This document shows, piece after piece, positions 23,954 to 62,171 of a stretch of DNA of 64,000 bases. This DNA comes from a virus: IMG/VR virus record IMGVR_UViG_3300011113_000805, positions 124,001 to 188,000 of that record. One strand, written 5' to 3'. Below the pieces are notes generated by a model. That model saw only the letters and a program-made list of their open reading frames with translations, did no database searches and was not told where the DNA came from. A program made the translations under genes and the position numbers. Numbering within the stretch: the first letter of the stretch is position 1; each line of letters begins with the position of its first letter.

Positions 23954-25184
23954 GGACACCTCCTGTATTTTGAGCTAATTTTAAGTAAGCATCATGTGTC
24001 ATTTTTGCAACGTGAATTGAATCACCTGGCAAAGTCTTTTCATTTGCAACTGTAACACCTTTTAACCTTGCCGACATGAAGCATCTCATTCCATAATCAA
24101 ATCTCTCTTTGCATACCTGGCTCAGATCTCCGAATTCCTCACCAATGCATACGGTAATTCGACGACCGGAGATCCTTGCAATTCTTCTAGAAATAAGCCC
24201 TTTAACATGCTCATCCTTGAATAAACTCAGTTCATGCCGCAATCGCTTGAGATGTTCATTTCTCCAAAAGTCATTTCGAATATTCACCTTAAGCATTCCC
24301 TTTTCGATTATGACATCTGATTCTTTTGATGAATTTTCAAGTGACAAGATAGGTGATAAAACTGCTCCGGTAACACCGGCTATATCATGCACGGTATATT
24401 CATCATCTATACTAACACCAGGTGTTACAGGAATAATATCGAATATCCCTCTAGAGTTGTTTGTATGGATTGTACTGGCAACTTCAGATGAAAACGCTCT
24501 AGCAAGCAGAATAGCAGAGACACCATTCTTTGCACAGTCATCTAGTAATCTGTGTACCTGGCCTACGGACTCAATAACACCATCAAAGACAATAAAGACT
24601 CTTGATGTGAGCCTGCCGGCGGAAGCAAAGCTAGGAGAAACAATCACAGGAAATGAGGATGACTCATCCACAGAGATGTGACTCAGCCCACCCAGTGTGA
24701 CAGTTAGGTTTCCAGTTGGCCCTAACATACGTATTGCCACTGCTAACATTTCCTCTACTGTCTTGTCATTGACAGTAGAGATGAGCTTTTCAATATCACT
24801 AGAGACAAGTTTTCTTGGCGATGAATTAGAGAGAGTTTTTCCTGCCAAGAGCCTTAGAAATAGTGCAGCAGAGCCAGGTGATGATTGTTCTGCCCTGTAT
24901 GCACTTATAAGCATGAGAGATCTTGTGACTCTCTCGTTATCATTGACAGGAGCATAAGACGACAGTATCCTAAGTGCATCAGAATCTGAGCCACCAAGGA
25001 TTCTATTGTTAAAGACTTCGGCAACTGGGGCCTCGAGGGTAGAAATTGCCCAATTGGCAATTTTTCTCGAGGCCCGCAGTATATCACTACCGTCACCGGT
25101 AAGTTTTCTAGCTGTCTCGCCAGAGGTTATTTGATGCAAAGGTGATAATCTCCTCTGCTGATTCTGGTGTGTATCCATAGTCAT
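23907..25184 (-). CDS. Divergent GroEL-like chaperonin
   Basis: 425 residues against about 548 in GroEL; the start is uncertain (a TTG at 25139 with GGAG nine bases upstream would give 410). GroEL landmarks appear in order: KTVEEMLAVAIRMLGPTGNL (GroEL DETVGKLIAEAMDKVGKEG), an apical-like GVSAILLARAFSSEV and IPVTPGVSIDDEYTVHDIAG (GroEL KAPGFGDRRKAMLEDIA), LKRLRHELSLFKDEHVKGLI, RRIARISGRRITVCIGEE (GroEL LAKLAGGVAVIKVG), then a C-terminal AYLKLAQNTGGVLALDK. The GDGTT nucleotide loop reads SSPGSAA, so ATP use is doubtful. Confidence 0.6.
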   Translation of the reverse strand: MTMDTHQNQQRRLSPLHQITSGETARKLTGDGSDILRASRKIANWAISTLEAPVAEVFNNRILGGSDSDALRILSSYAPVNDNERVTRSLMLISAYRAEQSSPGSAALFLRLLAGKTLSNSSPRKLVSSDIEKLISTVNDKTVEEMLAVAIRMLGPTGNLTVTLGGLSHISVDESSSFPVIVSPSFASAGRLTSRVFIVFDGVIESVGQVHRLLDDCAKNGVSAILLARAFSSEVASTIHTNNSRGIFDIIPVTPGVSIDDEYTVHDIAGVTGAVLSPILSLENSSKESDVIIEKGMLKVNIRNDFWRNEHLKRLRHELSLFKDEHVKGLISRRIARISGRRITVCIGEEFGDLSQVCKERFDYGMRCFMSARLKGVTVANEKTLPGDSIHVAKMTHDAYLKLAQNTGGVLALDKKMAVAKRRRG

Positions 25185-27033
25185 TTACAAGCGTATTAAC
25201 CATATCTGAATATTTCTTTTGCTGCTCATTGTCACGACTCTTTGACTTGGTGACAATGCGTGCCATGTCCTTCACCGAGGAGATAAGATATCCTTCAATT
25301 GCCTCACGAAGGGGCTCATATGAACGATAATCAACCTTAGTGCCTCTGCGGAACTTGGCAAACATGTAAGCAGTGACATCAGATCTGAATCCATCACGCA
25401 TTGAGCCGGTAACACCAATCTGTTCCTCAATGGCTCTCATGAACTTCTCATCAGGTTCCCTCTCTTCTGAGGTGACACGATCCTTCATCTTCTGACGTGT
25501 TGTGAAAGCCTCAGCATTATCAAGGTAGTTGTCAAAGAGTGATTGTGCCTGTTCTTCATATGCCGTAACAAAAGCCTTGGCAATTTCTCCTTCAAGGATC
25601 TTGAGATACTCTTCACGAATAATTTTTTGTAGAATTTCAAGGTATCTCTTCTTGTCTTCCTCGTTGATAATCTGCTCCTTTACTTGCTTGATAAGTGATT
25701 CAATCACACGTGTAGGAGTGATGAATCCCTTATCTGAGTCGGTTAGAGCAGAATCAAGGGCCTTGGTGATGAAACGTGTAGAGATGCCATCCATTCCTTC
25801 ATGTTTCGCCTCCTCACGAAGGTCACTGATATCAACCTTTCTGGTCTTGCCTTTTTCAACAATTTCTTGACCATCATAAATCTTCATCTTCGTGAGAAGA
25901 TCACACTTTGCCGAAGGCTTAAGTCGGCTCATTACGGAGAACATTGCGGCAACCTTAATGGTATGAGGTGCAATGTGCGCCCTGAAATCAGACCTCCGAA
26001 TCATCTTCTCGTAGATCTTCATCTCCTGAGCTAGTTCAAGGACGTAGGGAACCTCGATCTTCACAACACGGTCAAGAATTGCCTCATTCGTGTGTTCTGA
26101 CTTGAATCGATTCCACTCAGCCTCGTTGCAGTGTGAAATGATAACACCGTCAAAGTAGAGCATTGAATTCTTGCCAGGCGTTGGTACATTCTTCTCCTGA
26201 GTGGCTGTGAGAATTGTGTGGAGGAACTCGATCTCATTCTTGAAGATTTCAACAAACTCCACAACACCGCGGTTGCCAACGTTGAATGCACCGTTAAGAT
26301 TGAGGACACGAGGATCATCTTCGGAGTACTTATCCAGCTTAGAGATGTCTTCAGAACCGATAAGTGCCGAGACATCCTGGCTATTGGCATCCATTGGAGG
26401 AACTACTGCAATGCCACGCCGAGCACGCTGTGAGAATGAGGATCGCACGACAGGGAATCTCTCGTACTCACCATTGAACTCCTCCATTAACCGATAGCGG
26501 CAAACAGGACAGAGATCACCCTCAATATGGACATTTAGAAGTTTTTCGAATTCTCCACGAAGACTTCTAGGAAGAAGGTGAAGGGGCTCTTCACGAACAG
26601 GACATCCCTCAAGGTGATAAACAGGTTCGGCTGCCTTCTCTAGAGCTTTCTTTACAGCATCTGCAAGTGCCGACTTGCCAGAACCAACAGGTCCCATAAG
26701 TAGGAGAACCTGTCGGCTCTCTTCACCCTTCAACGATGCTGACTTCAAGAATCTCATGATCTTTGCGATGACACGCTCGTGACCGTAAAATTCATCCTTG
26801 AAGTAAGAATAAGTCCGAAGTTTGTCACCACCAAATAGCTTCTTGCAACGAGGATCAGCCTCATCAAGAGTTCCGGAACCATAAGACTCGATTGCATCAA
26901 CCAGCCGCTTTGCGGCAAGCTTTGTAACTGCCGGTTCCTGCCTTACTAGTTCAAGATAATCTACGAAACTACCACTCCAAGATTCTTTTTGTGAATCCTG
27001 CCTCTGCTTCTTAATGATGCTTAGAAAATCCAC
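25108..27033 (-). CDS. prkA: PrkA-type serine protein kinase (YeaG)
   Basis: 641 residues, full length for PrkA. GTG start with AGGAGG five bases upstream. The N-terminal AAA+ domain has Walker A GPVGSGKSA (114-122), a zinc-like CPVCRYRL, FNVGNRGVVEFVEIFK and DGVIISHCNEAEWNRF, all PrkA signatures. The C-terminal half (STRFITKALDSALTD, then FITPTRVIESLIKQVK) is the PrkA C-domain. In bacteria PrkA/YeaG works with YeaH and YcgB/SpoVR in stress and nutrient-limitation responses; here all three are adjacent. It overlaps the chaperonin-like gene. Confidence 0.93.
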   Translation of the reverse strand: MDFLSIIKKQRQDSQKESWSGSFVDYLELVRQEPAVTKLAAKRLVDAIESYGSGTLDEADPRCKKLFGGDKLRTYSYFKDEFYGHERVIAKIMRFLKSASLKGEESRQVLLLMGPVGSGKSALADAVKKALEKAAEPVYHLEGCPVREEPLHLLPRSLRGEFEKLLNVHIEGDLCPVCRYRLMEEFNGEYERFPVVRSSFSQRARRGIAVVPPMDANSQDVSALIGSEDISKLDKYSEDDPRVLNLNGAFNVGNRGVVEFVEIFKNEIEFLHTILTATQEKNVPTPGKNSMLYFDGVIISHCNEAEWNRFKSEHTNEAILDRVVKIEVPYVLELAQEMKIYEKMIRRSDFRAHIAPHTIKVAAMFSVMSRLKPSAKCDLLTKMKIYDGQEIVEKGKTRKVDISDLREEAKHEGMDGISTRFITKALDSALTDSDKGFITPTRVIESLIKQVKEQIINEEDKKRYLEILQKIIREEYLKILEGEIAKAFVTAYEEQAQSLFDNYLDNAEAFTTRQKMKDRVTSEEREPDEKFMRAIEEQIGVTGSMRDGFRSDVTAYMFAKFRRGTKVDYRSYEPLREAIEGYLISSVKDMARIVTKSKSRDNEQQKKYSDMVNTLVNDYGYTPESAEEIITFASNNLWRDS

Positions 27034-27042
27034 GATATCCTC

Positions 27043-28365
27043 CTATGAAATCTCAAACTCTTCATCTTCAACAATGGTCATCAGCTTGACAGGACCATTC
27101 CACAACTCTTTCATAAGCCTGACACAATTGTCAGCATAATCGAGTTCCAGATCACGACCATCATGTTCATGCCTTAGCACTAATGTATTTTGGCCATCAA
27201 CGTTATCTACGTATATCACAGGAATCATATTTCCTGACACTGTTTTTAGTAGCGCAGCCCTAACATTATGCCAACTGTCTTCATCTTCTACAATGTCATC
27301 AATTGTCCAGTCAGGATTTTTACCTGACTTAGGGCTAAATGTAAAGAGATTTAGTTCCCGCGCTTTCTCCTCAGTGAGGTACTGCATAATGAAACTCTCA
27401 TCATTGCAAACTTCTCTTGCAAGGAAGCATTCCTCAATGCCAAACCTCTTCTCAATGTCATTGAATATCTCAAAACCAAGATGATAAGGATTGATTTTTA
27501 GACCCCAAGGACGAAGTACGGCATTGTGTGTTTTAAGAAAAGGAATGTGATACTCATCTGGAAGCTCTAGGTCATGAAGGATTCTATAGTGCCAGAATGA
27601 TGCCCAACCTTCATTCATTACTTTTGTTCTGATTTGTGGCCAGAAGTAAAGTGATTCATCATGAATAATTTCAATGATATCCTTTTGCCAGTCAGTTAAC
27701 TTGTGATTATTTTCCAGAACAAAGCCAAGAATGTCATATTCTGGTTCTAGAGGAACACTCTCAAGATTAAAGTACTTCCAGATACCAATTTTGTCATTCT
27801 TCACCATTTCGGCATACTTCTTCTTGAGCTCTTTTTCTGGGAGTCTAGTCCTGCCGCGGCGATCTGTCTGGTAAGTGAATGCATGACAGGCGTCAATTAT
27901 TCTCTCGACTGCCTCTATGCCAATTGATGGATCCTCAATGTATCCTTTAATTCTCTTTGCAGCGTTTCGAAACCTCATAGTAACTGTTGCAGCATCAGTG
28001 TCCTTGAATGTCCGATTCTTCTTGAAAAAATCAGAGTGACCGACACAATGTGCCATAATGAGTATCTGCAGGTAGAGAGGATTCTCCAACATGAGATAAG
28101 CAATTGAAGGATCTGAGTTGATGATTAGTTCATAGGGAAGCCCTTCGGCACCTGCATTGTACATAAAGTGCGTTCTTTCAAACGCTTTTCCATAAGACCA
28201 GTTTGCATAGTGTGAGGGCATACCATGGTATGACATGTGACCGATCATCTCACGATAGTCACATGTCTCGTATGCAATGGGGTACCAGTCCAACCCGTGA
28301 CCACGTGCAATTTCACAGATCTTATTGTCCCACTCTTCAAGTTCTGCAATGCTATAGTCTCCCAC
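27043..28365 (-). CDS. spoVR: SpoVR/YcgB family protein
   Basis: 440 residues, GTG start in a TAGTG overlap with GGAGGTG upstream. SpoVR signatures are all present: AHCVGHSDFF, GIWKYFNLESVPLEPEYDIL, WPQIRTKVMNEGWASFWHYR, and NPYHLGFEIFNDIEKRFG, then EVCNDESFIMQYLTEE. Its role in bacteria is unclear (spore cortex in Bacillus; part of the YeaG-YeaH-YcgB set elsewhere). It lies nine bases before prkA on the transcript. Confidence 0.95.
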   Translation of the reverse strand: MGDYSIAELEEWDNKICEIARGHGLDWYPIAYETCDYREMIGHMSYHGMPSHYANWSYGKAFERTHFMYNAGAEGLPYELIINSDPSIAYLMLENPLYLQILIMAHCVGHSDFFKKNRTFKDTDAATVTMRFRNAAKRIKGYIEDPSIGIEAVERIIDACHAFTYQTDRRGRTRLPEKELKKKYAEMVKNDKIGIWKYFNLESVPLEPEYDILGFVLENNHKLTDWQKDIIEIIHDESLYFWPQIRTKVMNEGWASFWHYRILHDLELPDEYHIPFLKTHNAVLRPWGLKINPYHLGFEIFNDIEKRFGIEECFLAREVCNDESFIMQYLTEEKARELNLFTFSPKSGKNPDWTIDDIVEDEDSWHNVRAALLKTVSGNMIPVIYVDNVDGQNTLVLRHEHDGRDLELDYADNCVRLMKELWNGPVKLMTIVEDEEFEIS

Positions 28366-29537
28366 TAGACACCTCCAAAGAACATTTTGAATGTAGGCCA
28401 GATGTCTGACTTGCTCTTCATCAATGAATGACGAAGCTTAGGAGCCAGTGATGGAAGGTTCTTGAAAAGCCACCCCTCACGATCCCAAGCAGGAGTGACA
28501 TCAGTGGGCTTAATCTCACAGTACCCCACCATTTGACTCATGTCACAAAGCTCCCTATAAGCTTCAAACGCTTTTTGATTATCTTCACCCCAATTATCAC
28601 CATCAGTGCAGTGAAATGCATAGATGTTCCAGGCAGAAGGATGATACCGATCACGAATAATGTCAATTGCTAGCTTAGGTGCTGAAGAGACATAAGTTCC
28701 ACCGGCAGATCCTCGCTTAAAGAATGAGTCCTCATCGGTTTCATGTGCTTCTGTTGTGTGTGCAATGAAGACAATATCAACTTTATCGTACTTGTGACGA
28801 ATGAATTGATAGAGCAAGAAGTAAAAAGACCTAGCGATAAACTTGATCTCTTGTGTCATAGAGCCAGAGACATCCATCATGAAAAAGATGGCAGCATTTG
28901 TTGCCTCTTTGGGCTTTGACTTGATGTGATGGTATCTGAGGTCATTATCGTGGAATGGAAAGACTTCATTTCCATCCTCATCCAGCTCAACTGTTCCTGC
29001 CCGTCGAGCAGCAGCCAATCGCTTTATGCGATTAATTACAGACTCTTTCTTGTCAAGCCGAGGAGGAATTCCAGTAGACCTAGTACCATGCCGCCGCGGC
29101 TTCTCTTGAAGAAGTGTCTGTAGCTTCTTTTTCTCAAGTTCAGGCAAATTTAGTGACGAGAAAAGGTATTCAGCAAGTTCTTCAAGTGTGATTTCAACAT
29201 CATAGAATTCCTCACCCTTGTCATTACCAGGTTTTCCAGCTCCACCTTGCCCCTGCTGCTGTTGACCCTTCTTGACAACCTGTCCCTTTTGAATATCGGT
29301 GCCAGGTGCAGAACCAACATGTTTTTTATCACTGTTGTCACCAAAGATGAATTGCCACTCCTTGATGCCTCTGACAGGAATTCTGATCTTCTTTTTCCCA
29401 TCTTGGCCAATGATAGACTCCTCAGCGACAATATCACTGATTCCATCCTTGATGGCTTTCTCAATCTTCTGCTTGTGTCTTGATCGATCAGCAGCTGATC
29501 GGTCGGCGTTTGTTTTGTGTTCTCTGAAAATTGACAT
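28365..29537 (-). CDS. yeaH: YeaH/YhbH family vWA protein (DUF444)
   Basis: 390 residues from the ATG at 29537. MSIFREHKTNADRSAADRSR is the DUF444 start. The conserved IPVRGIKEWQFIFG strand, a Gln/Gly-rich linker, and a vWA domain with MIDAS DVSGS at about 222-226 follow, then IVFIAHTTEAHETDEDSFF, RGSAGGTYVSSA (MIDAS Thr) and HCTDGDNWGED. In bacteria YeaH is the partner of YeaG/PrkA. It is the first gene of this triad on the transcript; no clear SD precedes it. Confidence 0.93.
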   Translation of the reverse strand: MSIFREHKTNADRSAADRSRHKQKIEKAIKDGISDIVAEESIIGQDGKKKIRIPVRGIKEWQFIFGDNSDKKHVGSAPGTDIQKGQVVKKGQQQQGQGGAGKPGNDKGEEFYDVEITLEELAEYLFSSLNLPELEKKKLQTLLQEKPRRHGTRSTGIPPRLDKKESVINRIKRLAAARRAGTVELDEDGNEVFPFHDNDLRYHHIKSKPKEATNAAIFFMMDVSGSMTQEIKFIARSFYFLLYQFIRHKYDKVDIVFIAHTTEAHETDEDSFFKRGSAGGTYVSSAPKLAIDIIRDRYHPSAWNIYAFHCTDGDNWGEDNQKAFEAYRELCDMSQMVGYCEIKPTDVTPAWDREGWLFKNLPSLAPKLRHSLMKSKSDIWPTFKMFFGGV

Positions 29538-29573
29538 CTTGATTATAGGTATCAACTTTTTCTGCTCAGTAAC

Positions 29574-37936: not shown

Positions 37937-38818
37937 TTATGTTTCCCAATTCTTGATAGTATGCAAAGCCCAATCTTCAATGGTAGTCATACCATAGTCA
38001 TTGTATTGAGAATTGGTTGCAGCAATGTTCCATTTGCCGATAAAGAGTAGCGCATCATCCTTATCAAGGAACCCCAGAACTCTCTGGTTAAAAAGAGAGC
38101 CAATACTGACTTTTACATATGTGTCTAGATTCTTGTCATCATTAAGATGACTGTCATAGTTCTTTGCGGTCGAAGCTACCAACCAATCTTTCAGCTTTTC
38201 AATCGAATTCGGATGAATTCCTTTAAGGCCTCGCAAATTAAGATATTTCGAAATTCTGGAACCAAGAAAAGGAGAATTTGATCGATTGATGAAAATAAGC
38301 TTTGACTCCTCAACTTCCTGCCAATTGGAAGGAATATGAAAATGTTTTCCATCCCATCCCACAGCAGAATTTAGAAGATCAAACCTCTCTAGGGTCTCAT
38401 GGAGAGTAGGATGGCAAAGTTTTTCATGATTGACAAATTGCAGATTTGTGCCAATTTCACAGTTAAGGACTGCAATGCGTTTTTCCATTGCATTGCCGGC
38501 AGGTGACAAAATCCAATCCTGCTTCTGAGGCTGGGACTGTGCCTTAATGTAATTATTTGGAATTTTGGGATCTGGAAAGAAAACATCAATATCACCTCTT
38601 TCATAGAAGTATGAATTGATGTCACGTCCTAGAATGACATTTCGAACAAATCCACCTGCAAGCCAACCGCCTGATTCGATTGCGGCACGAACGTCACGAT
38701 GTTCGTGACACCGGTGTAAAAAACTACCCATCACAGTTCCAAGACTGTTCGGGTAGTTTTTTACACCGTGTTGAAATCGATCAACAACCTGCTGAGGGGT
38801 AAGGGCAATAAAATCCAT
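37937..38818 (-). CDS. Nucleotidyltransferase-fold protein (tRNA nucleotidyltransferase head-like)
   Basis: 293 residues from the ATG at 38818, which follows GGTGGGTGAT. SGGWLAGGFVRNVILGRDIN followed by RGDIDVFFPD is the GG-x-x-R...D-x-D core of the Pol-beta/CCA-adding nucleotidyltransferase fold. The remaining 200 residues match nothing I know, and the protein is short for a CCA enzyme. The first 35 codons contain an 18-base perfect inverted repeat. It lies near the tRNA genes, so a tRNA link is conceivable but unproven. Confidence 0.6.
   Translation of the reverse strand: MDFIALTPQQVVDRFQHGVKNYPNSLGTVMGSFLHRCHEHRDVRAAIESGGWLAGGFVRNVILGRDINSYFYERGDIDVFFPDPKIPNNYIKAQSQPQKQDWILSPAGNAMEKRIAVLNCEIGTNLQFVNHEKLCHPTLHETLERFDLLNSAVGWDGKHFHIPSNWQEVEESKLIFINRSNSPFLGSRISKYLNLRGLKGIHPNSIEKLKDWLVASTAKNYDSHLNDDKNLDTYVKVSIGSLFNQRVLGFLDKDDALLFIGKWNIAATNSQYNDYGMTTIEDWALHTIKNWET
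38712..38768. repeat. 18-bp perfect inverted repeat inside a coding region
   Basis: CGGTGTAAAAAACTACCC (38712-38729) and its complement at 38751-38768, with an inner ACAGT/ACTGT pair in the 21-base spacer. It lies near the 5' end of the nucleotidyltransferase-fold gene. The A6/T6 runs make it look like a terminator or a small mobile hairpin element. Confidence 0.8.
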
Positions 38819-38819
38819 A

Positions 38820-38939
38820 TCACCCACCAAAGAAGCTAATGAATGAGCAGACAAACAGCGTTACAACCGTGATGGCAACAAGACCGTAGATTGCACCATC
38901 CAGCCAAGCATTATGGCTATCATTATCACCTTGAAACAT
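38820..38939 (-). CDS. Very small membrane protein
   Basis: 39 residues: MFQGDNDSHNAWLDGAIYGL then a hydrophobic run VAITVVTLFVCSFISFFGG, one membrane helix. GTGAGAG precedes the ATG; the TGA is two bases before the next ATG. Tight spacing supports translation. Confidence 0.6.
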   Translation of the reverse strand: MFQGDNDSHNAWLDGAIYGLVAITVVTLFVCSFISFFGG

Positions 38940-39128: not shown

Positions 39129-39206
39129 TGGTAGGGCGTACAGGAGTCGAACCTGTATGATCCAATTACGGTACCAGGAGGTAGAAGCTCCGGCCGATAA
39201 CGCCCC
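39129..39206 (-). tRNA. tRNA-like gene, anticodon TCT (Arg), no D arm visible
   Basis: 78 bases with encoded CCA. Acceptor GGGGCGT/ACGCCCT (one G-U) and T arm ACAGG-TTCGACT-CCTGT are normal. Positions 8-40 instead form one long anticodon arm: A9-T39 and T8-A40, C11-G13 with C36-G38, C14-C15 with G32-G33, G16-G19 with C27-C30 (bulged T10 and T31), closing a canonical 7-base loop CTTCTAC with anticodon TCT. The segment ATTGGATCAT links it to the T arm. No D arm can be drawn. It may be a degenerate tRNA-Arg, or a tRNA-like RNA with another job. Confidence 0.55.
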
Positions 39207-39322: not shown

Positions 39323-39398
39323 TGGTAGGGCGGGTGGGGATTGAACCCACGACCTCCAGGATATAAGCCTGCTGCTCTGACCGCTGAGCTACCGCCCC
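39323..39398 (-). tRNA. tRNA-Ile (TAT)
   Basis: 76 bases with encoded CCA. Acceptor GGGGCGG/CCGCCCT, D arm GCTC-AGCGGTCA-GAGC, anticodon arm with loop CTTATAT (anticodon TAT, for AUA codons), T arm GTGGG-TTCAATC-CCCAC. A normal cloverleaf. It would read the rare Ile codon AUA. Confidence 0.93.
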
Positions 39399-39807: not shown

Positions 39808-39881
39808 TGGAGCAAGCGCCGAGATTTGAACTCGGTTCTCCGGCTTGGAAGGCCGGGGCACAACCCATATACCACGCTTGC
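39808..39881 (-). tRNA. tRNA-Gly (TCC)
   Basis: 74 bases with encoded CCA. Acceptor GCAAGCG/CGCTTGC, short D arm GTAT/GTGC (with G-U pairs), anticodon arm CCGGC-CTTCCAA-GCCGG (anticodon TCC, for GGA), T arm CCGAG-TTCAAAT-CTCGG. It immediately precedes thioredoxin on the transcript. Confidence 0.93.
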
Positions 39882-41005: not shown

Positions 41006-42055
41006 TCATGATTTATATCTTCCTGTTGATACCCACCTATCCTTGTTTCTGACTTTGCTCCGGAGTGTTCGGACAAGTCCATCGATAGGCTCTTCGTCAC
41101 CAGCTTTCACTCTTTGGAGCATTGACAGGAGTCGGCTAGCCTCACTTGGTTCCATAAAAGTCCTATAGCCAGGAGGAAAACCTGCTGAGGCCGCAGTGAG
41201 ATATCTCTCAATGTCTCCTATCATTCTGTCCTTACCTGGATCAACCTCACCAGCAGCTAGTCTCTTGAGGCGATCATACACGTTTCCAATCGGAATGCTG
41301 GCCTTGTCTGAGAATGTCGCATAGATTGGTGCCATTAGTCGCTGCAAATCTGCATAAGTTTTCTCTGGTATCTTGAAAGGCTTCGAAGTGCCGGAGACAA
41401 AGATACCCTCGGGTGGTCCTCCAAGAATGCTCTCACCAAAGATCTCCATCAGCGCTCCTGACACAGTGAGCTCAAGGCTCTTCTTCTCTTCCTTGGAGAG
41501 GGCCCTCCCGGTGCCTATCTTGGTGAGATACTCCTCCAGCTGGAGGCGAGTTTCAGGACTCAGGGGTCGAGGTCTCTTCGTAATGTCTTGCTGTGTGAGG
41601 AACTTGAGCCGGGACTGCTGGTTATTGAGTTCACTAGCCATCTCACTAGTCATCTTACCTGTGAATTCAATGGCAATATTCTTGTCACCGATGACATAGT
41701 CGATGTAGTCCGGACGCCTGTCATTCTTGATTACTTCGAACTTGAATGAGATATTTGGAACATTTACAGGGATGGAGGAATTTTCAATGGTTGCCCGTAC
41801 ACCGGCAATATCTGCCCACGTATTTTCACTGCCAGAATCGTCATCCTTGAATTTCGCTAGAACCTCTCCTTTCCTGATCTCTACGGCCAGGTGCTGTCCT
41901 GCAAGTTTTTCAGTATAGCTTGCAAGTGGTTCCCGACCCAGGATGTCCTGAAGAACCATCGAGATGTCATCCGGTGTTAGATCAGCAAGTTTAGGAGTCG
42001 GTGCTTCCAGCATAAGTCTTACTAGCTGCCTGACGATTGCGAATTTTTGATTCAT
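41006..42055 (-). CDS. Large hypothetical protein with capsid-targeting-like leader
   Basis: 349 residues. It begins MNQKFAIVRQLVRLMLEAPT, an amphipathic leader of the type seen on the effector paralogues, although its LMLE does not fit the (I/L)-x-E rule exactly. The middle has YIDYVIGDKNIAIEFTGK, and further on LGGPPEGIFVSGTSKPFKIP, a pattern I associate with unassigned head-associated proteins of T4-like phages. It overlaps the next gene by four bases. Confidence 0.6.
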   Translation of the reverse strand: MNQKFAIVRQLVRLMLEAPTPKLADLTPDDISMVLQDILGREPLASYTEKLAGQHLAVEIRKGEVLAKFKDDDSGSENTWADIAGVRATIENSSIPVNVPNISFKFEVIKNDRRPDYIDYVIGDKNIAIEFTGKMTSEMASELNNQQSRLKFLTQQDITKRPRPLSPETRLQLEEYLTKIGTGRALSKEEKKSLELTVSGALMEIFGESILGGPPEGIFVSGTSKPFKIPEKTYADLQRLMAPIYATFSDKASIPIGNVYDRLKRLAAGEVDPGKDRMIGDIERYLTAASAGFPPGYRTFMEPSEASRLLSMLQRVKAGDEEPIDGLVRTLRSKVRNKDRWVSTGRYKS

Positions 42056-42822
42056 AGCATAAACCTCACAAGATTTCTAATAAGCCTCTCAGACACAGCC
42101 GACCATTCACTTCGAGGACAAAGTCTAATTGCACTAGTTGAAAGAGTATTGAAAACTTCCTCAGCAATTCTATCAGGGAGAGGGGGCAACATTGGCAAAA
42201 ATCCCTCTTTGTCACCATCGCACAGCATCTTTCGCATATGCGTACCACTAATCTCAACTGTGCTTGACCTTGGAATTCCAAATTTCATAATGCTGGTACC
42301 AAAGCTTCCTGGATAAAGCTTGTTCATAAGACTCTCAGGATAATTTTGATTGATGTCATCGATGTCAGAATAAACAGTGATCACTGTATCATTCGGATTG
42401 ACAGTAATGCCAACATATGGAAGCGTCACCGAATCATCACCTGCTTCGCTAGCCTTATGTAGAACTTCCAAGACCTTATGCACTGAGGTGATGGGAGAAG
42501 GAAGAATGCCATCGGCGGGTGTTAGCACCGTAACATTAGGTGGAAACTCCAGATTTGGAATCAACAAAGTTTCCCAGATGTACTTCATATCCTCACCAAA
42601 TATTGGTGTCTCACCAGGGATAGGCCTCTCCTTACCTCCACTTTTCTTTATTCCAGGCTTTGTTCCTCTACTTGTGTATGAAACAAGCACAAAGACCTCA
42701 TCATTTTCAGGTGATCCCTCAATAGCTACGCCAGATGCATCACCTAGTGCCGCTAGCTGAACTAGCATATGATGCCCCAGATGATAAGGTTTTGCTGACA
42801 TTGGCACCAATCCAATTCTCAT
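42052..42822 (-). CDS. Nucleotidyltransferase of the HxGH (cytidylyltransferase) fold
   Basis: 256 residues, ATG with GAGG five bases upstream. IGLVPMSAKPYHLGHHMLVQ holds HLGH, and VEISGTHMRKMLCDG is the IS-x-T-x-x-R motif that closes the active site in NMN and pantetheine-phosphate adenylyltransferases. The long middle (DDINQNYPESLMNKLYPG) is unusual. The substrate is unknown; nicotinate/nicotinamide nucleotide is one option. Confidence 0.75.
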   Translation of the reverse strand: MRIGLVPMSAKPYHLGHHMLVQLAALGDASGVAIEGSPENDEVFVLVSYTSRGTKPGIKKSGGKERPIPGETPIFGEDMKYIWETLLIPNLEFPPNVTVLTPADGILPSPITSVHKVLEVLHKASEAGDDSVTLPYVGITVNPNDTVITVYSDIDDINQNYPESLMNKLYPGSFGTSIMKFGIPRSSTVEISGTHMRKMLCDGDKEGFLPMLPPLPDRIAEEVFNTLSTSAIRLCPRSEWSAVSERLIRNLVRFML

Positions 42823-47008: not shown

Positions 47009-47118
47009 TATTACCTCCGAACATAGGTAATATAATTACTTTGAGCATAGAAGAACACTTCTATTTGGACATTTCTTAAAAAATTTGCATATTTATTGGT
47101 TCAAGAGGCAATGCTGTG
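47009..47118. other. Divergent promoter region between ligase and the kinase
   Basis: 110 bases, A+T-rich. It contains the ATAGAAG-AACA-CTTCTAT hairpin (about 47047-47064), and GCATATTTATT close before the plus-strand gene; a similar GCATATTTAG lies before the plus-strand gene at 34868. The promoter assignment is tentative. Confidence 0.4.
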
Positions 47119-47781
47119 ATGAAGAACACGATTCAAACGTTAAGGCACATTATATCAGAGACACTTCTTCAAGAAATTGCTCCAAGAGAATTCGATCCTC
47201 ACAAGAAGGCTGTTATAGTTGCCGGACCCATGGGAGCAGGAAAAACAACAATATCAAAACTCATTCTTGGAGGTCTCGGTTTCATTAATCGAGATGTTGA
47301 CGATATGTTAGTTAGACTTCTAAAACAAGAAAAAATGAAGCTTGACATGAAGGACTACACACCAAAAGAACTAGCCGTTGTCGATAGCCTTAGAAGCAAG
47401 ACATTTGATTGGATCGAAAAGGTGCAGAAGAGAGACAGGGAAGCAGGCAGAGGTATCATTGTCAATATGACAGGCGCAAATTTTCCCTTTACAATGCAAT
47501 TGACGCAGGAGTTTGAGGACGCAGGCTACAAAGTCAAAATGCTCTTTGTAGATGTCACGCTAAAAACATCACTTGCAAGAAATAGGACCCGCGAGAGATC
47601 GGTCAATGAGAAAGTTGTTGAGGAGAAGTACCATAGGACAAAAGAAAACATTCCTAAGTTCAAGGAAGCATTCGGAGATGACTTTCACTACTTTGACTCT
47701 GAGACTGGGAAGGCGTCACTAAGCGATCCACAGGTCATAAAGATTAGCAAAGACATCACAAACTGGAGACCTGCAAGATAA
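47119..47781 (+). CDS. P-loop kinase (zeta-toxin/AAA_33-like) with capsid-targeting-like leader
   Basis: 220 residues from the ATG at 47119, or one codon earlier at a GTG with GAGG seven bases upstream. MKNTIQTLRHIISETLLQEI is an amphipathic leader with I-S-E and L-Q-E sites. Walker A is AGPMGAGKTTISK. FINRDVDDMLVRL, GRGIIVNMTGANF and SLARNRTRERS match the zeta/polynucleotide-kinase-like family. The substrate (sugar nucleotide, nucleic acid end) is unknown. One of few plus-strand genes. Confidence 0.72.
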   Translation: MKNTIQTLRHIISETLLQEIAPREFDPHKKAVIVAGPMGAGKTTISKLILGGLGFINRDVDDMLVRLLKQEKMKLDMKDYTPKELAVVDSLRSKTFDWIEKVQKRDREAGRGIIVNMTGANFPFTMQLTQEFEDAGYKVKMLFVDVTLKTSLARNRTRERSVNEKVVEEKYHRTKENIPKFKEAFGDDFHYFDSETGKASLSDPQVIKISKDITNWRPAR

Positions 47782-52605: not shown

Positions 52606-53226
52606 TCAACTATTTTGTCGCCTTAGAGAGCCTCTTGTTCGCATGTAATCGCTAACACTCTTATGCGCAATGGCACTGGTGTCGTCACCTGATCTGATGG
52701 CTTTCCTAATGAGAGTGCTACTAAGTCCCTCTGTCCTGGGTAACCGTAGGAACCATGCCCCATCTCGCATTTCGAAACAGGGCATTGGTGAGCAGTCTCC
52801 ATAGTCCTCGCCAATTAATCTGACAAACGTTGAGCCTGGATGTAGAGACTCAAAGTATCTCTTGTACTCCGCAGAATTCTGCCATGTGGGTTTACGAAGC
52901 TCCCAGTCGGAGACTACAATGCCTGTGCCGGCCGTAATTGACTGTAAGAGATTAAACCTGTCATCAGGAGGAAGTATCTCATTGCGGTCCTTAAATTTCC
53001 TCTCCAACCACCGGGGATGATTTGGGCACATGTAGAGACCGACAACGTCGTAACCCATCTTCTCTACGGTTCGCATAGCAGCAAGGGTGACATTGACATG
53101 CCCGCGGTGGGGTGGATTAAAAGAACCATCATTGACGAGAACGAGACTTCTATTACTAGGACGGCTATTTCTCTTAATTTCCTCTTGAATGAGGGACCGA
53201 AGTAATGTCTCGATTAAATTTCTCAT
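52606..53226 (-). CDS. NMN adenylyltransferase-like protein with capsid-targeting-like leader
   Basis: 206 residues from the ATG at 53226. MRNLIETLLRSLIQEEIKRN is an amphipathic leader with an I-Q-E site. The enzyme follows: LVNDGSFNPPHRGHVNVTLA (HxGH), WLERKFKDRNEILPPDDRF, FVRLIGEDYGD, and EGLSSTLIRKAIRSG (the SST-x-x-R motif). This matches NadD/NadM-type adenylyltransferases making NAD(P) dinucleotides. The leader suggests it may travel in the virion with the ADP-ribosyltransferase-like proteins. Confidence 0.75.
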   Translation of the reverse strand: MRNLIETLLRSLIQEEIKRNSRPSNRSLVLVNDGSFNPPHRGHVNVTLAAMRTVEKMGYDVVGLYMCPNHPRWLERKFKDRNEILPPDDRFNLLQSITAGTGIVVSDWELRKPTWQNSAEYKRYFESLHPGSTFVRLIGEDYGDCSPMPCFEMRDGAWFLRLPRTEGLSSTLIRKAIRSGDDTSAIAHKSVSDYMRTRGSLRRQNS

Positions 53227-53248
53227 AGATGGTGCCAAATGAATATTT

Positions 53249-53336
53249 GGTGCCGGCACATTCGTGAATCCACCTAACCCAGTCAATGTTACACAACTAG
53301 TTGGAAGGGATTGCGGTACTGCAATGTGCCGGCACC
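53249..53336. repeat. 14-bp perfect inverted repeat with 60-base spacer
   Basis: GGTGCCGGCACATT (53249-53262) and AATGTGCCGGCACC (53323-53336). The spacer holds no gene. It lies upstream of the adenylyltransferase gene and just after the gene at 53341, so it may terminate one and control the other. A further CCAAAT/ATTTGG hairpin sits between it and the ATG at 53226. Confidence 0.7.
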
Positions 53337-56356: not shown

Positions 56357-57367
56357 TCATGCTCTTAGTTTATCCTTGAGATGTTCCGGAACATTTTTCC
56401 AGTACTTGTGATCAAGGCCGTAGATACTCAAACCCACCTGCAGGTCCTCTGGAAGGGTAATGATAGATGTGGATCCGAGAAAGAGATTGCCTTTTACCAC
56501 AAGTCCATCAGGAAGGGATGTGATAGTTGTGCCTGCAAGATCAAGACTTCCTTTTACTATAAGGCCTTCTGGAAGGGATTTAATAGAAGCGCCGGCGAGA
56601 TCAAGATTACCATTTATGACTCTTTGATCTTTTGGTAGTTTCTCAAAACGCTTAAAAACACTTAGTATCGATAAGCTAGTAGGTGCTTTGATTAAGACTT
56701 CATTAACCCGGATTGTACCGACAGCAATAACCTCCTTTTCATGCTGGAAGTCCTCAATGCGTGTTAATCTATAAAGCCCATCACAGTCAATCCATTTCCC
56801 AGGATTGTCTTCTACAGTAGCGCAGAGAATGATTCCAAATTGTTTGCCATCCCCGGTGGCAAAACCTTTGGCTTGATCAAGGCTTTTTGTCCAGGATGCT
56901 ACATAATTTTCATTCCTATTCGTTAAATCAATTTGTACCTTGCCGGTACTAACGTAATCTAGATTGCCCTCTTTTAGGGCCTGTTGAACTATTTCATCAA
57001 ATGTGGTGTCATTTGGCAGAAATTTCTCTACAGTGTCTCTGCTAGAAATTAGCAATCCTCGATAGAGAGTGCCAGGTGGTGGTGTTTTAAAGATATCTGT
57101 ATAGAGGTCTTGATTGATATACTTCAAGATTCGATTAATAGCATTTTTGGCAAGAGGCATATTTCCACCGAAAAAATGATTGATCAAATACCTGTAAAGC
57201 TCATTCTCAATCTCGGTATCCTCCTCCGGAGGCGGTTTAGGTGAACCTGCACGAACATTTGCAAAGGCATACTTCCCCAGAGGAGCATCAGCTGGTGCCT
57301 CTGGCTTGTAGGCACCATCAGACTCCAGAAGAACTTGGCGAATGAGAGAGCGGGGGAGATGAGTCAT
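56357..57367 (-). CDS. Predicted R-S-E ADP-ribosyltransferase with leucine-rich repeats (copy 1)
   Basis: 336 residues. Leader MTHLPRSLIRQVLLES with an L-L-E site at 14-16, then a Pro-rich linker. Catalytic domain: R103 in GTLYRGL, S158-W-T in YVASWTKSLDQAKGFA, and E210-K-E212 in HEKEVIAVG, the R-STS-ExE order of arginine-type ADP-ribosyltransferases (T4 Alt, ModA; bacterial toxins). Then three 20-residue repeats (SLPEGLIVKGSLDLAGTTIT style) and a cap ending YWKNVPEHLKDKLRA. It has its own AATAAATA box but no SD. Confidence 0.7.
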   Translation of the reverse strand: MTHLPRSLIRQVLLESDGAYKPEAPADAPLGKYAFANVRAGSPKPPPEEDTEIENELYRYLINHFFGGNMPLAKNAINRILKYINQDLYTDIFKTPPPGTLYRGLLISSRDTVEKFLPNDTTFDEIVQQALKEGNLDYVSTGKVQIDLTNRNENYVASWTKSLDQAKGFATGDGKQFGIILCATVEDNPGKWIDCDGLYRLTRIEDFQHEKEVIAVGTIRVNEVLIKAPTSLSILSVFKRFEKLPKDQRVINGNLDLAGASIKSLPEGLIVKGSLDLAGTTITSLPDGLVVKGNLFLGSTSIITLPEDLQVGLSIYGLDHKYWKNVPEHLKDKLRA

Positions 57368-57372
57368 AAAGA

Positions 57373-57382
57373 CTATTTATTC
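57373..57382 (-). promoter_or_regulatory. Possible T4-type late promoter box
   Basis: Minus strand GAATAAATAG, five bases before the ATG at 57367. Seven of eight bases of the T4 late box TATAAATA. The same GAATAAATAG-C/T-CTTT-ATG string precedes the first gene of the cluster at 63190. The close spacing would give an almost leaderless mRNA, so the role is uncertain. Confidence 0.4.
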
Positions 57383-57404
57383 TTCACATGTGAATGAATA
57401 CTAG

Positions 57405-58730
57405 TCAGTATTGAAGTTTACCTTTGAGGTGTTTCGGAACACCGCCCCAGTACTTGCGATCGAGGCCGTAGATGCTGCCGCCCACATGGAGATCTGATGG
57501 GAGGGTGGTGATGGAAGTGCTGAGGATGAGAGCTCCTATCACATGGAGGTCTGATGGGAGGGAGGTGATGGAAGTGCCGGCGAGGTAGAGACTGCCGCCC
57601 ACATGGAGTCCTTCTGGGAGGGAGGTGATGGAAGTGTCGGCGAGGTCGAGGTCTTCGCCCACATGGAGTCCTTCTGGGAGGGAGGTGACAGGAGTGCCGG
57701 TGAGGCGGAGACCGCCCACATGGAGTCCTTCTGGGAGGGTGGTGATGGAAGTGTCGGCGAGGTCGAGCCATCCGTCCACTTGGAGGCCTTCTGGGAGGGT
57801 GGTGATGCGAGTGCCGCGGAGGAAGAGAGCTCCCATCACATGGAGGTCTGACGGGAGGGAGGTGATGGACGTGCCACGGAGGTCGAGCCATCCGCCCACG
57901 TGGAGGCCTGACGGGAGGGTGGTGATGGGAGTGTTACGGAGGTCGAGATTGCCCTCCACAACCCTCTGATCTTCCGGGAGTTGCTCGAGACGTTTCAGCG
58001 CTTTCAATGCTGCCTGTGTAGGATCCCACTTCCCAGCTTCGAAGTCACCTGCTGCAGATCGACGAATGGCTGACTGCTGCACGGGTCGACCCTCTCTGTC
58101 GCTGACACCTGGTCGATCGAGGGGTGCAAGAAGTTTTGACCTGTCGATGGGTGTCCAGGGCTCAGAGACGGGGTCCCCATTATGAGCAACCTGCTTCCAC
58201 GCCATTGGAACTGCCGTTGTCGGGTCGTAAACAACGACAACATGACCGTCATTTCTACCCGTGAAGACGAGACCCTTCACTTCATGCTGAAGAGGTTTGT
58301 GGACTTTGTAGGCCAAATCTGAAGTAAATTTACTGCCCTTCGGTCGCCTAACCCCCTCCAACGCCTTGATAACAGTCTCACTGTAGCCGACTTCCTCGGC
58401 CTGTTCAGCAGGTGTGAGCCGACGCTTATAGACCTTCAGAGCGATCTCAGGATCGAAGATGATGTACCCGTAGAGGTTTACCTTCAACTTGATGATGTGA
58501 TCACCGTAGTCACCTCTTTCGGTCTTCGTGCCTTTAAGGTTGTAGACGGTGTAGAGACCCTTCCCGTACATTGCTCCGGCACCGGCACCCGGTGTGAACT
58601 TGTCACTCAGCAAGGCATCGATGAGTGCCTGAGGGTCTGCCCCTGTCCCGTGGTAGACGACAGCCTGAGCACCGTACACCTCCTCGAGAAGGAGGGTTTC
58701 GCGGATGAGAGAGCGGAGGAGCTGGGTCAT
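57405..58730 (-). CDS. Predicted PARP-like (H-Y type) ADP-ribosyltransferase with eight leucine-rich repeats (copy 2)
   Basis: 441 residues. Leader MTQLLRSLIRETLLLEEVYG (L-L-E at 14-16). Then a different catalytic type: AVVYHGTG (H27) and MYGKGLYTVY (Tyr55/Tyr60) as in the H-Y-x class of PARP-like enzymes, with GYIIFDPEIALKVY and FTGRNDGHVVVVYDP; the third catalytic residue is not clear. Residues from about 250 hold eight 20-residue repeats (TSITSLPEGLHVGGSLYLAG) and the YWGGVPKHLKGKLQ cap. Its G+C is visibly higher than that of copies 1 and 3-5. Confidence 0.65.
   Translation of the reverse strand: MTQLLRSLIRETLLLEEVYGAQAVVYHGTGADPQALIDALLSDKFTPGAGAGAMYGKGLYTVYNLKGTKTERGDYGDHIIKLKVNLYGYIIFDPEIALKVYKRRLTPAEQAEEVGYSETVIKALEGVRRPKGSKFTSDLAYKVHKPLQHEVKGLVFTGRNDGHVVVVYDPTTAVPMAWKQVAHNGDPVSEPWTPIDRSKLLAPLDRPGVSDREGRPVQQSAIRRSAAGDFEAGKWDPTQAALKALKRLEQLPEDQRVVEGNLDLRNTPITTLPSGLHVGGWLDLRGTSITSLPSDLHVMGALFLRGTRITTLPEGLQVDGWLDLADTSITTLPEGLHVGGLRLTGTPVTSLPEGLHVGEDLDLADTSITSLPEGLHVGGSLYLAGTSITSLPSDLHVIGALILSTSITTLPSDLHVGGSIYGLDRKYWGGVPKHLKGKLQY
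57480..57980. repeat. About 60-bp coding tandem repeats (eight copies)
   Basis: Plus-strand units such as GGGAGGGAGGTGATGGAAGT recur every 57-60 bases, with the unit TGGAGTCCTTCTGGGAGG several times exact. They encode the leucine-rich repeats of the overlapping minus-strand gene. Two units are 57 bases long (19 residues). Near identity between units suggests recent expansion by unequal recombination. Confidence 0.85.
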
Positions 58731-60058
58731 CTTAGTTTATCCCTGAGATGTTTCGGAACATTTTTCCAGTACTCATGTTTAAGACCAAAAATACCGCCGC
58801 CTATCTGGAGTCCTGCTGGGAGGGAGGTGATGCCCGTGCCGGTGAGGTCGAGGTTCCCACCTACGCTGAGATCTGCTGGAAGGGAGGTAACAGATGTGTG
58901 CTGAAGATAGAGACTCTCATCCACTTTGAGACCATCTGGAAGAGAGGTGATATCACTCTGAGAAAGATCAAGTACTTTTCTCGCGTGGAGACCTTTCGGA
59001 AGTGAAGTAACTTTACTTGACCTAAGACTAAGTGATCCTTTTATCTGCATGTCATCAGGAAGAGATTTGATATTAGTCCCGGTCATAATAATGTCACCTA
59101 TTACAACTAGACCTTTTGGAAGGAAAGTGATTTTTGTGAAGGCACAATTAAGATTACCGGTAATTTTAAGATCTTCTGGAAGTGACGTGATTGATGTCCC
59201 CCTAACATTTAGACTTCCCTTAATCTGGAGACCATTCGGAAGTGTGATATTGTTCGAATTAGATTCTAAGTCGGCAAGCCTAATATCACCATTCAATATT
59301 CTCTTGTTTTTTGGTAAGCTCTCGAAAGCTATTAGTTTTTGCAGTACTATAATTTCATGACTAAACCTGATCATAACTTTATCAACTCTAATAGTTCCAG
59401 TGGCAATGACTTCTCTCTCATCCGCATAGTCAGCAATTTCTATTAAGTCATAAAGACCTTCACAGTCAATCCATTTTCCAGGATTGTCTGCCACTGTGGC
59501 ACAGAAAATGATAGCTAGATTTTTGTGATCAACTGAAGCAAATTCTTTGGCCTTGCTAAGACTCTTCGTCCAGGAAGCCGAGTGTTTCCCCGCCTTATTT
59601 GTTAAATCAATTTGCGCCTTAAAACTAAGAAAATTATTTGTTAGTTTTAAGGCGCTTTGCTGACGAAAAATGTCAGCAAAAGAAATCCCGGGTGGAAGAA
59701 ATTTTTCTATAAGTTTAGCGTTTTCTTTGTTATAGGAAAGTGTTATTCCTCGATAAAGGGTCTTAACTTTTGGCACCTTAAAAACATCTGTGTAAAGACC
59801 CTGATTGATAAAGCCTATAACTTGATCAACCTCCTCTTTAGAAAGCGGAGTATTTCCACTGTCAAAATGACGTCTCAATGATTGAAATAGTTGATTCTCG
59901 ATCTCCGTATTTTTTTCACGAGGAGGTTTACGCCTGCCTACCCTATTGAGTGCAAATGCATATTTCCCAAGAGGAGCATCGGCTGGTGCCTCTGGCTTGT
60001 AAGGCCTATTAGACTCTAGCTGGATTTGACGAACCAATGAACGGAGAAGATGAGTCAT
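58727..60058 (-). CDS. Predicted R-S-E ADP-ribosyltransferase with eight leucine-rich repeats (copy 3)
   Basis: 443 residues. Leader MTHLLRSLVRQIQLESNRPY (here IQLE, not an exact (I/L)-x-E). Catalytic residues: R103 (LYRGI), S162-W-T (SASWTKSLSKAKEF), E214-R-E216 (DEREVIATG). GKWIDCEGLYDL, shared by all R-S-E copies, lies between. Eight divergent repeats follow, then YWKNVPKHLRDKLR. ATGA overlaps at both ends. Its repeats are more diverged than those of copy 2, so it is an older array. Confidence 0.7.
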   Translation of the reverse strand: MTHLLRSLVRQIQLESNRPYKPEAPADAPLGKYAFALNRVGRRKPPREKNTEIENQLFQSLRRHFDSGNTPLSKEEVDQVIGFINQGLYTDVFKVPKVKTLYRGITLSYNKENAKLIEKFLPPGISFADIFRQQSALKLTNNFLSFKAQIDLTNKAGKHSASWTKSLSKAKEFASVDHKNLAIIFCATVADNPGKWIDCEGLYDLIEIADYADEREVIATGTIRVDKVMIRFSHEIIVLQKLIAFESLPKNKRILNGDIRLADLESNSNNITLPNGLQIKGSLNVRGTSITSLPEDLKITGNLNCAFTKITFLPKGLVVIGDIIMTGTNIKSLPDDMQIKGSLSLRSSKVTSLPKGLHARKVLDLSQSDITSLPDGLKVDESLYLQHTSVTSLPADLSVGGNLDLTGTGITSLPAGLQIGGGIFGLKHEYWKNVPKHLRDKLR

Positions 60059-61173: not shown

Positions 61174-62171
61174 CTTAGTTTATCCTTGAGATGTTCCGGA
61201 ACATTTTCCCAGTACTCACGTTTAAGACCAAAAATACCGACGCCTACCTGCAGATCCTCTGGAAGGATGATGATAGATGTGGTTCCGAGGCTGAGAATGC
61301 CTTTTACCACAAGTCCTTCAGGAAGGGATGTGATAGGTGCATTTGAAAGATACAGATCACCCTTCACCACAAGTCCTTCAGGAAGGGATGTGATATCTGT
61401 ACCTGAAAGGTCGAGTCCACCCTTCGTAATTCTTCGATTTTTTGGCAAATTCATGATTTGTGATATTTCAAACTCTGTCCCAATTACCACAGACGGCCTA
61501 ATCATAACTTCATTAACCCGAATTGTGTCGACAGCAATAACTTCATTTTCATCGTTATAGTTCTTAAAATCATTCAACCTATAAAGACCTGAACAGTCAA
61601 TCCATTTCCCTGGGCTATCATTCACTGTGGCACAGGCAATGATAGCAAAATCAGAAGAATTACCGCCAGCAAATTCCTTAGCCTTTTTAAGGCTCTTTGT
61701 CCAAGATGCTGTGTATCTTTCATTTATGTTTGTCAAGTCAAGCTGTGTTTTGAAACTAGCAAAATCTTCACCTGTCTCTATAATCTGCCTCCAGGCATCA
61801 TTAAATGTGATTCCCTTTGGTAGAAATTTCTCAGCAACATATCTATCGCTAATGCTCAAACCTCGATAAAGGTTGATACTAGGGATTGGCGCCTTAAAGA
61901 CATCTGAATAAAGATCTTTTTCGATAAAATCTAAGATTTGATCAGCATAAAATTTCGAAATAGGCTGATAGGAAGAAAAATGAGAGATCAAACTTCTATA
62001 GAGATATCTCTCAGTCTGAGTGTCTTCCTCCGGAGGCGGCTTGGGAGTGCCTAAACGAACATTTGCAAAGGCGTACTTCCCAAGAGGAGCATTGTGTGGG
62101 GCAACCGGGGTATAGGTCTCGTCAGACTCGAGAAGAACTTGGCGAATGAGAGAGCGGAGGAGCTGGGTCAT
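61170..62171 (-). CDS. Predicted R-S-E ADP-ribosyltransferase with three leucine-rich repeats (copy 5)
   Basis: 333 residues. Leader MTQLLRSLIRQVLLESDETY (L-L-E). Catalytic residues: R103 (NLYRGL), S156-W-T (TASWTKSLKKAKEF), E208-N-E210 (DENEVIAVD). Three repeats (ITSLPEGLVVKGDLYLSNAP) and cap YWENVPEHLKDKLR. ATGA overlaps with copies 4 and 6. Confidence 0.7.
   Translation of the reverse strand: MTQLLRSLIRQVLLESDETYTPVAPHNAPLGKYAFANVRLGTPKPPPEEDTQTERYLYRSLISHFSSYQPISKFYADQILDFIEKDLYSDVFKAPIPSINLYRGLSISDRYVAEKFLPKGITFNDAWRQIIETGEDFASFKTQLDLTNINERYTASWTKSLKKAKEFAGGNSSDFAIIACATVNDSPGKWIDCSGLYRLNDFKNYNDENEVIAVDTIRVNEVMIRPSVVIGTEFEISQIMNLPKNRRITKGGLDLSGTDITSLPEGLVVKGDLYLSNAPITSLPEGLVVKGILSLGTTSIIILPEDLQVGVGIFGLKREYWENVPEHLKDKLR

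Follow-up and report, generated by a model that had tools for sequence, protein, structure and literature searches.

Can a phage gene encode a tRNA with no D arm between its acceptor stem and its anticodon arm, and, if so, what has become of the D arm? The question is raised by a locus in a 64,000-nt stretch (the window) of a 257,178-base IMG/VR virus record. A sequence-only reading of the window had described there a tRNA-like gene of 78 nt with an acceptor stem, T arm, discriminator, CCA and a CTTCTAC loop (UCU, Arg), and all of these are present as described (Table 1). It had also called the gene D-armless, remarking that such tRNAs are known from mitochondria and not from phages; none is indeed on record outside mitochondria, and a 2024 paper describes all known bacterial tRNAs as cloverleaves and armless tRNAs as confined to mitochondria (PMC11551756). 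On the basis of sequence comparison, we consider it highly probable that the window element is a functional phage tRNA-Arg reading AGA, of a class whose D-loop strand is placed after the anticodon arm.

Anatomy of the window element

Read along its own strand, the element is GGGGCGT TATCGGCC GGAG CTTCTAC CTCC TGGTACCGTAATTGGATCAT ACAGG TTCGACT CCTGT ACGCCCT A CCA. The acceptor stem, the T arm, an anticodon loop with U33 and purine 37, and the CCA of a canonical tRNA are all there, and A20, C35, U36 and A73 make up the bacterial arginine identity set. What is missing is the D arm that canonical tRNAs have between the acceptor and anticodon stems: just 8 nt separate the two stems here, which leaves no space for a D arm, and the consensus fold of the relatives contains no D hairpin. 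The 8-nt connector TATCGGCC is the short connector of mitochondrial-type D-armless tRNAs. The absence of D-loop G18 and G19 that marks those tRNAs is not observed here, as GUAAYUGG is kept 3' of the anticodon arm together with the Levitt pair. Neither does the element resemble circularly permuted tRNA genes, whose ends lie inside a loop and whose acceptor strands are adjacent in the precursor; its acceptor strands are at both gene ends.

Folded as a single sequence, the element favours another structure (-26.8 kcal/mol, versus -20.9 kcal/mol for the permuted fold); structure is frequently mispredicted for unmodified tRNA transcripts. Two partial readings were discarded. Interpretation of CCTCCTTA as a copy of the 16S anti-SD was dropped because the anticodon stem sequence is free to vary across the family, and a class-II-like long variable arm was ruled out by comparison with relatives.

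Table 1. Features of the window element and the adjacent canonical tRNA genes (window coordinates).
Feature	Position	Strand	Remarks
Predicted permuted tRNA-Arg(UCU) gene	39129..39206	-	78 nt including CCA; R1 41.9 bits, full layout matched; belongs to short-linker subfamily A2; RF00005 just 25.9 bits
Acceptor stem 5' strand GGGGCGT	39200..39206	-	pairs with ACGCCCT 39133-39139; 1-72 is G-U; all 7 pairs covary in A1 and A2
U8 A9	39198..39199	-	invariant, 270/270 family members (U8 required by the scan, A9 not)
Extension helix 5' strand C11 G12 G13	39194..39196	-	partner CCG 39169-39171; covariation in short-linker members
Anticodon arm GGAG CTTCTAC CTCC	39177..39191	-	4 bp plus C-U mismatch at the 27-43 position; anticodon UCU 39185-39183; stem covaries in A1 and A2
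Relocated D-loop strand UAAUUGGA	39161..39168	-	3' of anticodon arm; A14 A15 U16 U17 G18 G19 A20 equivalents; motif GTA[AG]..GG[AT] kept in family
Connector UCAU to T arm	39157..39160	-	final U is the 48 equivalent, Levitt partner of A15
T arm ACAGG TTCGACT CCTGT	39140..39156	-	read from sequence; covaries
Discriminator A73 and encoded CCA	39129..39132	-	read from sequence
Canonical tRNA-Ile(UAU)	39323..39398	-	upstream, same strand; ARAGORN and Rfam, 67.4 bits
Canonical tRNA-Gly(UCC)	39808..39881	-	same strand; ARAGORN and Rfam, 53.7 bits

A family of genes with the same layout

When IMG/VR was scanned for the bare anticodon arm GGAGCTTCTACCTCC, the matches were canonical tRNAs and, unexpectedly, some 17 loci that share the layout of the window element, in which an anticodon arm 8-9 nt past the acceptor stem is followed by a conserved CGTAAYTGGA and then the T arm. 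The pattern GTAAHWGGANBTGNRAATNNNGGTTCGA, with the anticodon left free, matched more than 100 IMG/VR stretches, with Arg anticodons in all matches listed; two additional patterns extended the set to members with a short linker and to members in which GGT replaces GGA. A descriptor scan of the 5.69 Mb fetched gave 271 unique sequences, compared with none on the reversed sequence. One of them is a false match to a canonical tRNA, which leaves 270 distinct members in 305 loci. U33 and purine 37 occur throughout the family, both being required by the scan, as was U8 (A9 was not). CCA is encoded in 113 of the 271 sequences, and anticodons are limited to real sense codons with matching identity bases.

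Some contigs hold several permuted tRNAs. Five stand in series on contig L271 (3904-5165, +), with anticodons GAU, CAU, UAU, CAU and ACG, and other contigs have two to four each; rare anticodons are CUU (Lys, L259) and UAC (Val, L412 and L497).

Fold and covariation

The 64 long-form members align without gaps over 80 columns. RNAalifold, unprompted, returned the permuted fold for this alignment, with double changes at 20 of 24 pairs: an acceptor stem, a 3-4 bp D stem enclosing the anticodon arm, an extension helix, the anticodon arm itself, an 8-nt bulge UAAYUGGA and the T arm. Tested as a named structure on the same sequences, it paired in 98.0% of cells and reached a covariation score of 0.913, against 0.234 for shuffled and at most 0.187 for slid controls. 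The D-stem pairs of the long forms show changes on both sides in 28 and 18 sequences (G-C, A-U, C-G and C-G, U-A, A-U, respectively). In the 111 short-linker forms, the type to which the window element belongs, the D stem is gone and the extension helix, of 3 bp, covaries; its pair 1 is C-G in all 111 members, pair 2 is paired in all 111 with five pair types, and pair 3 is paired in 101. The 13 sequences nearest to the window element (subfamily A2) have TA[TC]CGG...ACCGTAAYTGGA..AT in common. Covariance among relatives, which the sequence-only reading had proposed as a check, is found for the permuted fold, with A2 scoring 0.801 against 0.222 when shuffled; the extension pairs are invariant within this subfamily.

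The relatives change how the locus is to be read. The region described earlier as a single stem of 11 pairs does pair, but as a 4-5 bp anticodon stem and a separate 3-bp helix (C11 G12 G13 / C36 C37 G38). A GTA/TAC mini-hairpin suggested for the bases before the T arm finds no support because TAC runs into the T stem. The GG that had been placed on the 'wrong side' of the anticodon arm does exist there and is conserved. No D arm exists in the usual place, as had been stated; the molecule is nevertheless not devoid of its parts, as the D-loop strand G18 G19 A20 survives in a new place, 3' of the anticodon arm, and a 3-bp D stem wrapping that arm is retained in many relatives.

In place of a cloverleaf, the predicted secondary structure has two stacked arms and a bulge. 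The chain would begin with the acceptor 5' strand, U8 A9, the D-stem 5' strand (in long forms) and an extension helix opening with the invariant C-G, continue through the anticodon arm, the D-loop strand GUAAYUGG(A/U), the D-stem 3' strand (again in long forms) and U48, and end with the T arm, the acceptor 3' strand, the discriminator and a CCA that about two fifths of members encode.

Tertiary core and amino-acid identity

The equivalents of positions 15 and 48, the Levitt pair, are A-U in 236, G-C in 32 and G-G in 2 of the 270 members (A-U or G-C in 268/270). For the set fetched with position 15 free and position 48 held to Y, the 15-48 table is 11:0 / 0:22 (p = 5e-9). This retention of the Levitt pair of canonical tRNA makes an L-shaped core likely; the bulged D-loop would dock on the T loop to produce the L shape.

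Bacterial arginine identity comprises A20, C35, U/G36 and A/G/U73, and isoleucine identity includes A73 and U20 (PMC9976931). In the permuted family, base 20, right after GG, is A in 188 of 188 members with Arg anticodons (UCU, ACG, UCG, CCU, GCG) and U in 76 of 79 with UAU, GAU or CAU. When both anticodon and base 20 were left free, the set contained Arg members with A20 at 71:0 and non-Arg members at 1:28 (p = 6e-24). The discriminator is G, A or U in 187 of the 188 Arg-anticodon members and A in all UAU, GAU and CAU members. Agreement between the anticodon and identity bases elsewhere in the molecule would be hard to explain otherwise than by charging, to which it points. The permuted members are most likely charged tRNAs, predicted to combine a two-armed secondary structure with an L-shaped core, and host RNase P, CCA enzyme, ArgRS or IleRS, EF-Tu and the ribosome would accept them.

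Detection by gene finders and covariance models

Permuted tRNAs have been overlooked because gene finders assume the canonical order; ARAGORN missed 350 of 381 placements. ARAGORN and Rfam at the gathering score leave the window element uncalled, and call only the tRNA-Ile(UAU) and tRNA-Gly(UCC) genes here. Its RF00005 score falls under the gathering cut-off of 29 bits. Some other members exceed this cut-off (L328 at 44.1, L327 at 36.5 and L605 at 33.4 bits), and a covariance-based finder may therefore report them as odd or pseudo tRNAs.

We built a covariance model, R1, from the 64 long-form relatives with the window sequence excluded. Its score for the window element (Table 1) corresponds to E = 2.8e-8 in the window, and the canonical tRNAs of the window's genome score at most 31 bits. 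The R1 bit score was rejected as lone proof because canonical tRNA-Gly(UCC) of alphaproteobacteria reaches 39-41 bits. Decisive for the predicted identity of the window element are that it matches the permuted layout from end to end, that its canonical score is lower, and that it aligns with 12 close relatives in A2.

Possible codon supply and replacement, and genomic neighbours

The phage of the window has 11 canonical tRNAs, none with a UCU anticodon, and AGA is its top Arg codon (112 of 433 in 21 ORFs). A permuted tRNA-Arg would supply AGA decoding in phages otherwise without tRNA-Arg(UCU), and permuted tRNAs would more generally boost AGA or AUA decoding during infection. Canonical tRNAs are rarer beside permuted tRNAs of the same anticodon for UCU (14/825 versus 54/1486, p = 0.005), ACG (1/615 versus 42/1696, p = 2.5e-5) and UAU (3/616 versus 46/1695, p = 2e-4), p-values that are merely indicative since the loci are fragments and partly redundant. 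Loci chosen for canonical tRNA-Arg(UCU) were left out of the background, which weakens the UCU effect. No such depletion is seen for GAU, CAU or UCG, and both kinds of gene are present at some loci.

In a related contig (G003, with a PrkA-type kinase 88% identical), tRNA-Ile(UAU) has a canonical tRNA-Arg(UCU) as its neighbour, close to a homologue of window gene 37937-38854, and the lineage of the window may therefore have given up a canonical gene for a permuted one. The sequence-only reading had named in advance, as evidence of a one-off deletion, the presence of a normal D arm at the same site in related phages; the canonical gene does exist, but the deletion does not follow, because the window element belongs to a large covarying family. 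Among 50 relatives of the phage recruited by the PrkA-type kinase, a DNA search with the element found no homologue, and R1 at E <= 1e-5 found none in 25 of those contigs; from its absence in these relatives, which are fragment contigs, the element would have been acquired or replaced in the window's lineage.

The kinase, a serine kinase of the PrkA/YeaG type (641 aa), belongs to a group of three genes at 25108-29555 (-) of the window; of the other two, one is of unknown function and one encodes a protein that matches a 'sporulation protein' family. Relatives of the kinase are encoded in 157 IMG/VR stretches, the best 80 of the 157 at 66-90% identity. A search of IMG/VR with the NMNAT-like neighbour at 42052-42822 found no relatives. 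Several tandem paralogous genes of 333-443 aa at 56357-63190 (-) have a common N-terminus like MTxLLRSLIRQ(V/T)LLES/E, and similar N-termini occur at 41006-42055, 47116-47781 and 52606-53286; this recurrence suggests a common targeting or packaging tag.

Members in cultured phages and in bacterial genomes

A nucleotide search with the window region against cultured phages gave canonical tRNA matches only. Permuted members are present, without annotation, in Caulobacter phage phiCbK, Vibrio phage PG07, Pseudomonas phage Boevelstad, Microbacterium phage Pumpernickel, Limnohabitans phage DC31 and Sinorhizobium phage Phosso, and also occur in Mycobacterium phage Cosmo and Streptomyces phage Francob. 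In phiCbK, a permuted Arg(ACG) occupies an unannotated gap between tRNA-Gln and tRNA-Gly in a tRNA cluster whose annotated genes include no Arg tRNA. Two Streptomyces phage genes carry other annotations: tRNA-Val(aac) in Yaboi (L609:601-679) has the layout of a permuted Arg(UCU), and tRNA-Phe(gaa) in Mildred21 (L610:601-676) that of a permuted Arg(UCG). The crAss-like Kehishuvirus 'tikkala', sole cultured relative in a DNA search with an Ile member, is a member by sequence with a weak R1 score (28.8 bits).

Felix O1 carries a permuted Arg(UCU) at 25951-26029, and its group comprises 119 phage records with the permuted gene, the copy being at least 95% identical in 115 of them; not one of the 5,426 E. 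coli genomes searched has a gene of this type. The Felix O1 genome paper reported that Arg[AGA] is over-used and that a tRNA it 'might have expected' was not found (PMC3185647). The permuted gene appears to supply this AGA tRNA. Phage heid (Felixounavirus, MN850577) was isolated on E. coli K-12 MG1655; its 25 canonical tRNAs include no UCU anticodon, and it likewise carries the permuted gene, at 12063-12144 (-). Annotated HNH endonuclease genes of Felix O1 (ORF45, L614:2004-2396) and heid (L606:1032-1430) start within the permuted tRNA, and their annotated starts are therefore probably misplaced. A homing endonuclease adjoining the permuted tRNA may aid its spread.

Outside phages, 257 Gb of bacterial and archaeal genomes yielded just 8 stretches that match the strict pattern, several of them short MAG contigs of possibly viral origin. 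In the Brucella/Ochrobactrum group, a permuted Arg(UCU) with the full layout occurs at 50 bits or more in 8 of 35 genomes (L633:9520-9599 (+), also L622 and L623-L628), with the acceptor mostly GCCCGCG/CGCGGGC; under strict filters, 3 of 398 genomes match across the whole order containing this group. The two loci examined in the group are flanked by host-type genes and lie near tRNA-Gln or tRNA-Thr. Integrated elements are often located near tRNA genes.

Alternative explanations

The window element could be truly D-armless in the manner of mitochondrial tRNA-Ser(AGY), the D arm having been deleted to leave the 8-nt connector, with an extended variable arm (TGGT-CCG / TGG-ATCA) after the anticodon arm. 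The acceptor-8 nt-anticodon arm spacing does resemble that of mitochondrial D-armless tRNAs, and a 7-bp variable-region hairpin forms within the single-sequence minimum-energy fold. That hairpin is not conserved, whereas GUAAYUGGA is; in relatives, CCG pairs instead with C11 G12 G13 and covaries with it (CGG/CCG, CTC/GAG, CCC/GGG, CAC/GTG and others), and G18G19, A20 and the Levitt pair are kept, though true D-armless tRNAs do not need them. We regard a D-armless tRNA as quite improbable here. Decay is very improbable: a functionless pseudogene or rearranged remnant would account for the failure of canonical tRNA finders and for the canonical tRNA-Arg(UCU) beside tRNA-Ile(UAU) in a related phage, but it is excluded for the family by strong covariation over hundreds of diverse sequences, and it fits poorly with the intact acceptor stem, T arm and CCA of the window copy and with the near-identical copies in the Felix O1-type records.

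Phages use tRNAs against host tRNases (PMC11555353), and an altered core could change recognition by tRNA-targeting nucleases. A tRNA-shaped RNA acting outside translation, as a decoy or sponge for such nucleases or as a regulatory RNA binding ArgRS or IleRS, is nonetheless improbable, given sense-codon anticodons with matching identity bases, U33 and purine 37 throughout (as the scan required), encoded CCA in the proportion given above, and genes that tend to fill gaps in the canonical set. A decoy or regulatory role would also be compatible with translation. Counting against the preferred reading, a functional tRNA-Arg with a relocated D-loop strand, are the window anticodon stem, with just 4 pairs and a C-U mismatch, and the loss in short-linker forms of the long-form D-stem pairs.

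Escape from tRNA-targeting defence is one possibility for what favoured the permuted form. In a wider and more speculative account, which we think rather unlikely as a whole, phages, and some alphaproteobacteria via mobile elements, would carry a parallel permuted-core tRNA class for Arg, Ile and a few others, kept because its core evades the tRNA nucleases or quality control by which the host disables canonical tRNAs during infection, and so sustaining translation of rare AGA and AUA codons.

Relation to known tRNAs and significance

Algal and archaeal permuted tRNA genes have their halves in swapped order, and a canonical cloverleaf is regained by processing. Only the word 'permuted' is common to these and the phage genes; unlike them, the phage genes have the acceptor strands at the two gene ends, and therefore no canonical tRNA can be restored. 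Canonical bacterial tRNA-Arg (RF00005) has in common with the permuted form the 7-bp acceptor stem, the T arm with its TTCRANN loop, the 7-nt anticodon loop (U33, purine 37), A20, C35, the 15-48 pair and CCA; the permuted form differs in that its D-loop strand comes after the anticodon arm, any D stem encloses that arm, and a four-way cloverleaf is lacking. Mitochondrial D-armless tRNA-Ser(AGY) and the synthetic E. coli 'mini HisT' likewise pass from acceptor stem to anticodon arm without an intervening D arm; those molecules lack any D-loop and are modelled as Y-shaped, whereas permuted tRNAs keep the D-loop and its tertiary partners elsewhere in the chain (PMC11551756). Acceptance of mini HisT by E. 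coli HisRS, EF-Tu and the ribosome shows that bacterial translation tolerates D-arm loss (PMC11551756). Allo-tRNA, selC* tRNA-Cys and tRNA-Sec are also non-standard bacterial architectures; they alter stem lengths with the order acceptor-D-anticodon-variable-T intact, whereas permuted tRNAs alter the order (PMC7609411).

The class is apparently undescribed so far: no earlier description of permuted-core tRNAs was found in open-licence PMC full text, and phages do not come up in a 2020 review of non-canonical tRNAs. From its sequence, this would be an RNA that works like a tRNA yet does so without the cloverleaf that defines one. A non-cloverleaf topology is seen here in nature, across hundreds of phage contigs and also in textbook phages of E. 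coli, Caulobacter, Mycobacterium and Streptomyces, and phage tRNA counts require revision. Permuted tRNAs are ready test systems for recognition by ArgRS and IleRS, for RNase P and EF-Tu, and for anti-phage tRNA nucleases, and the class separates what a tRNA needs, its tertiary contacts and identity bases, from the order of these along the chain.
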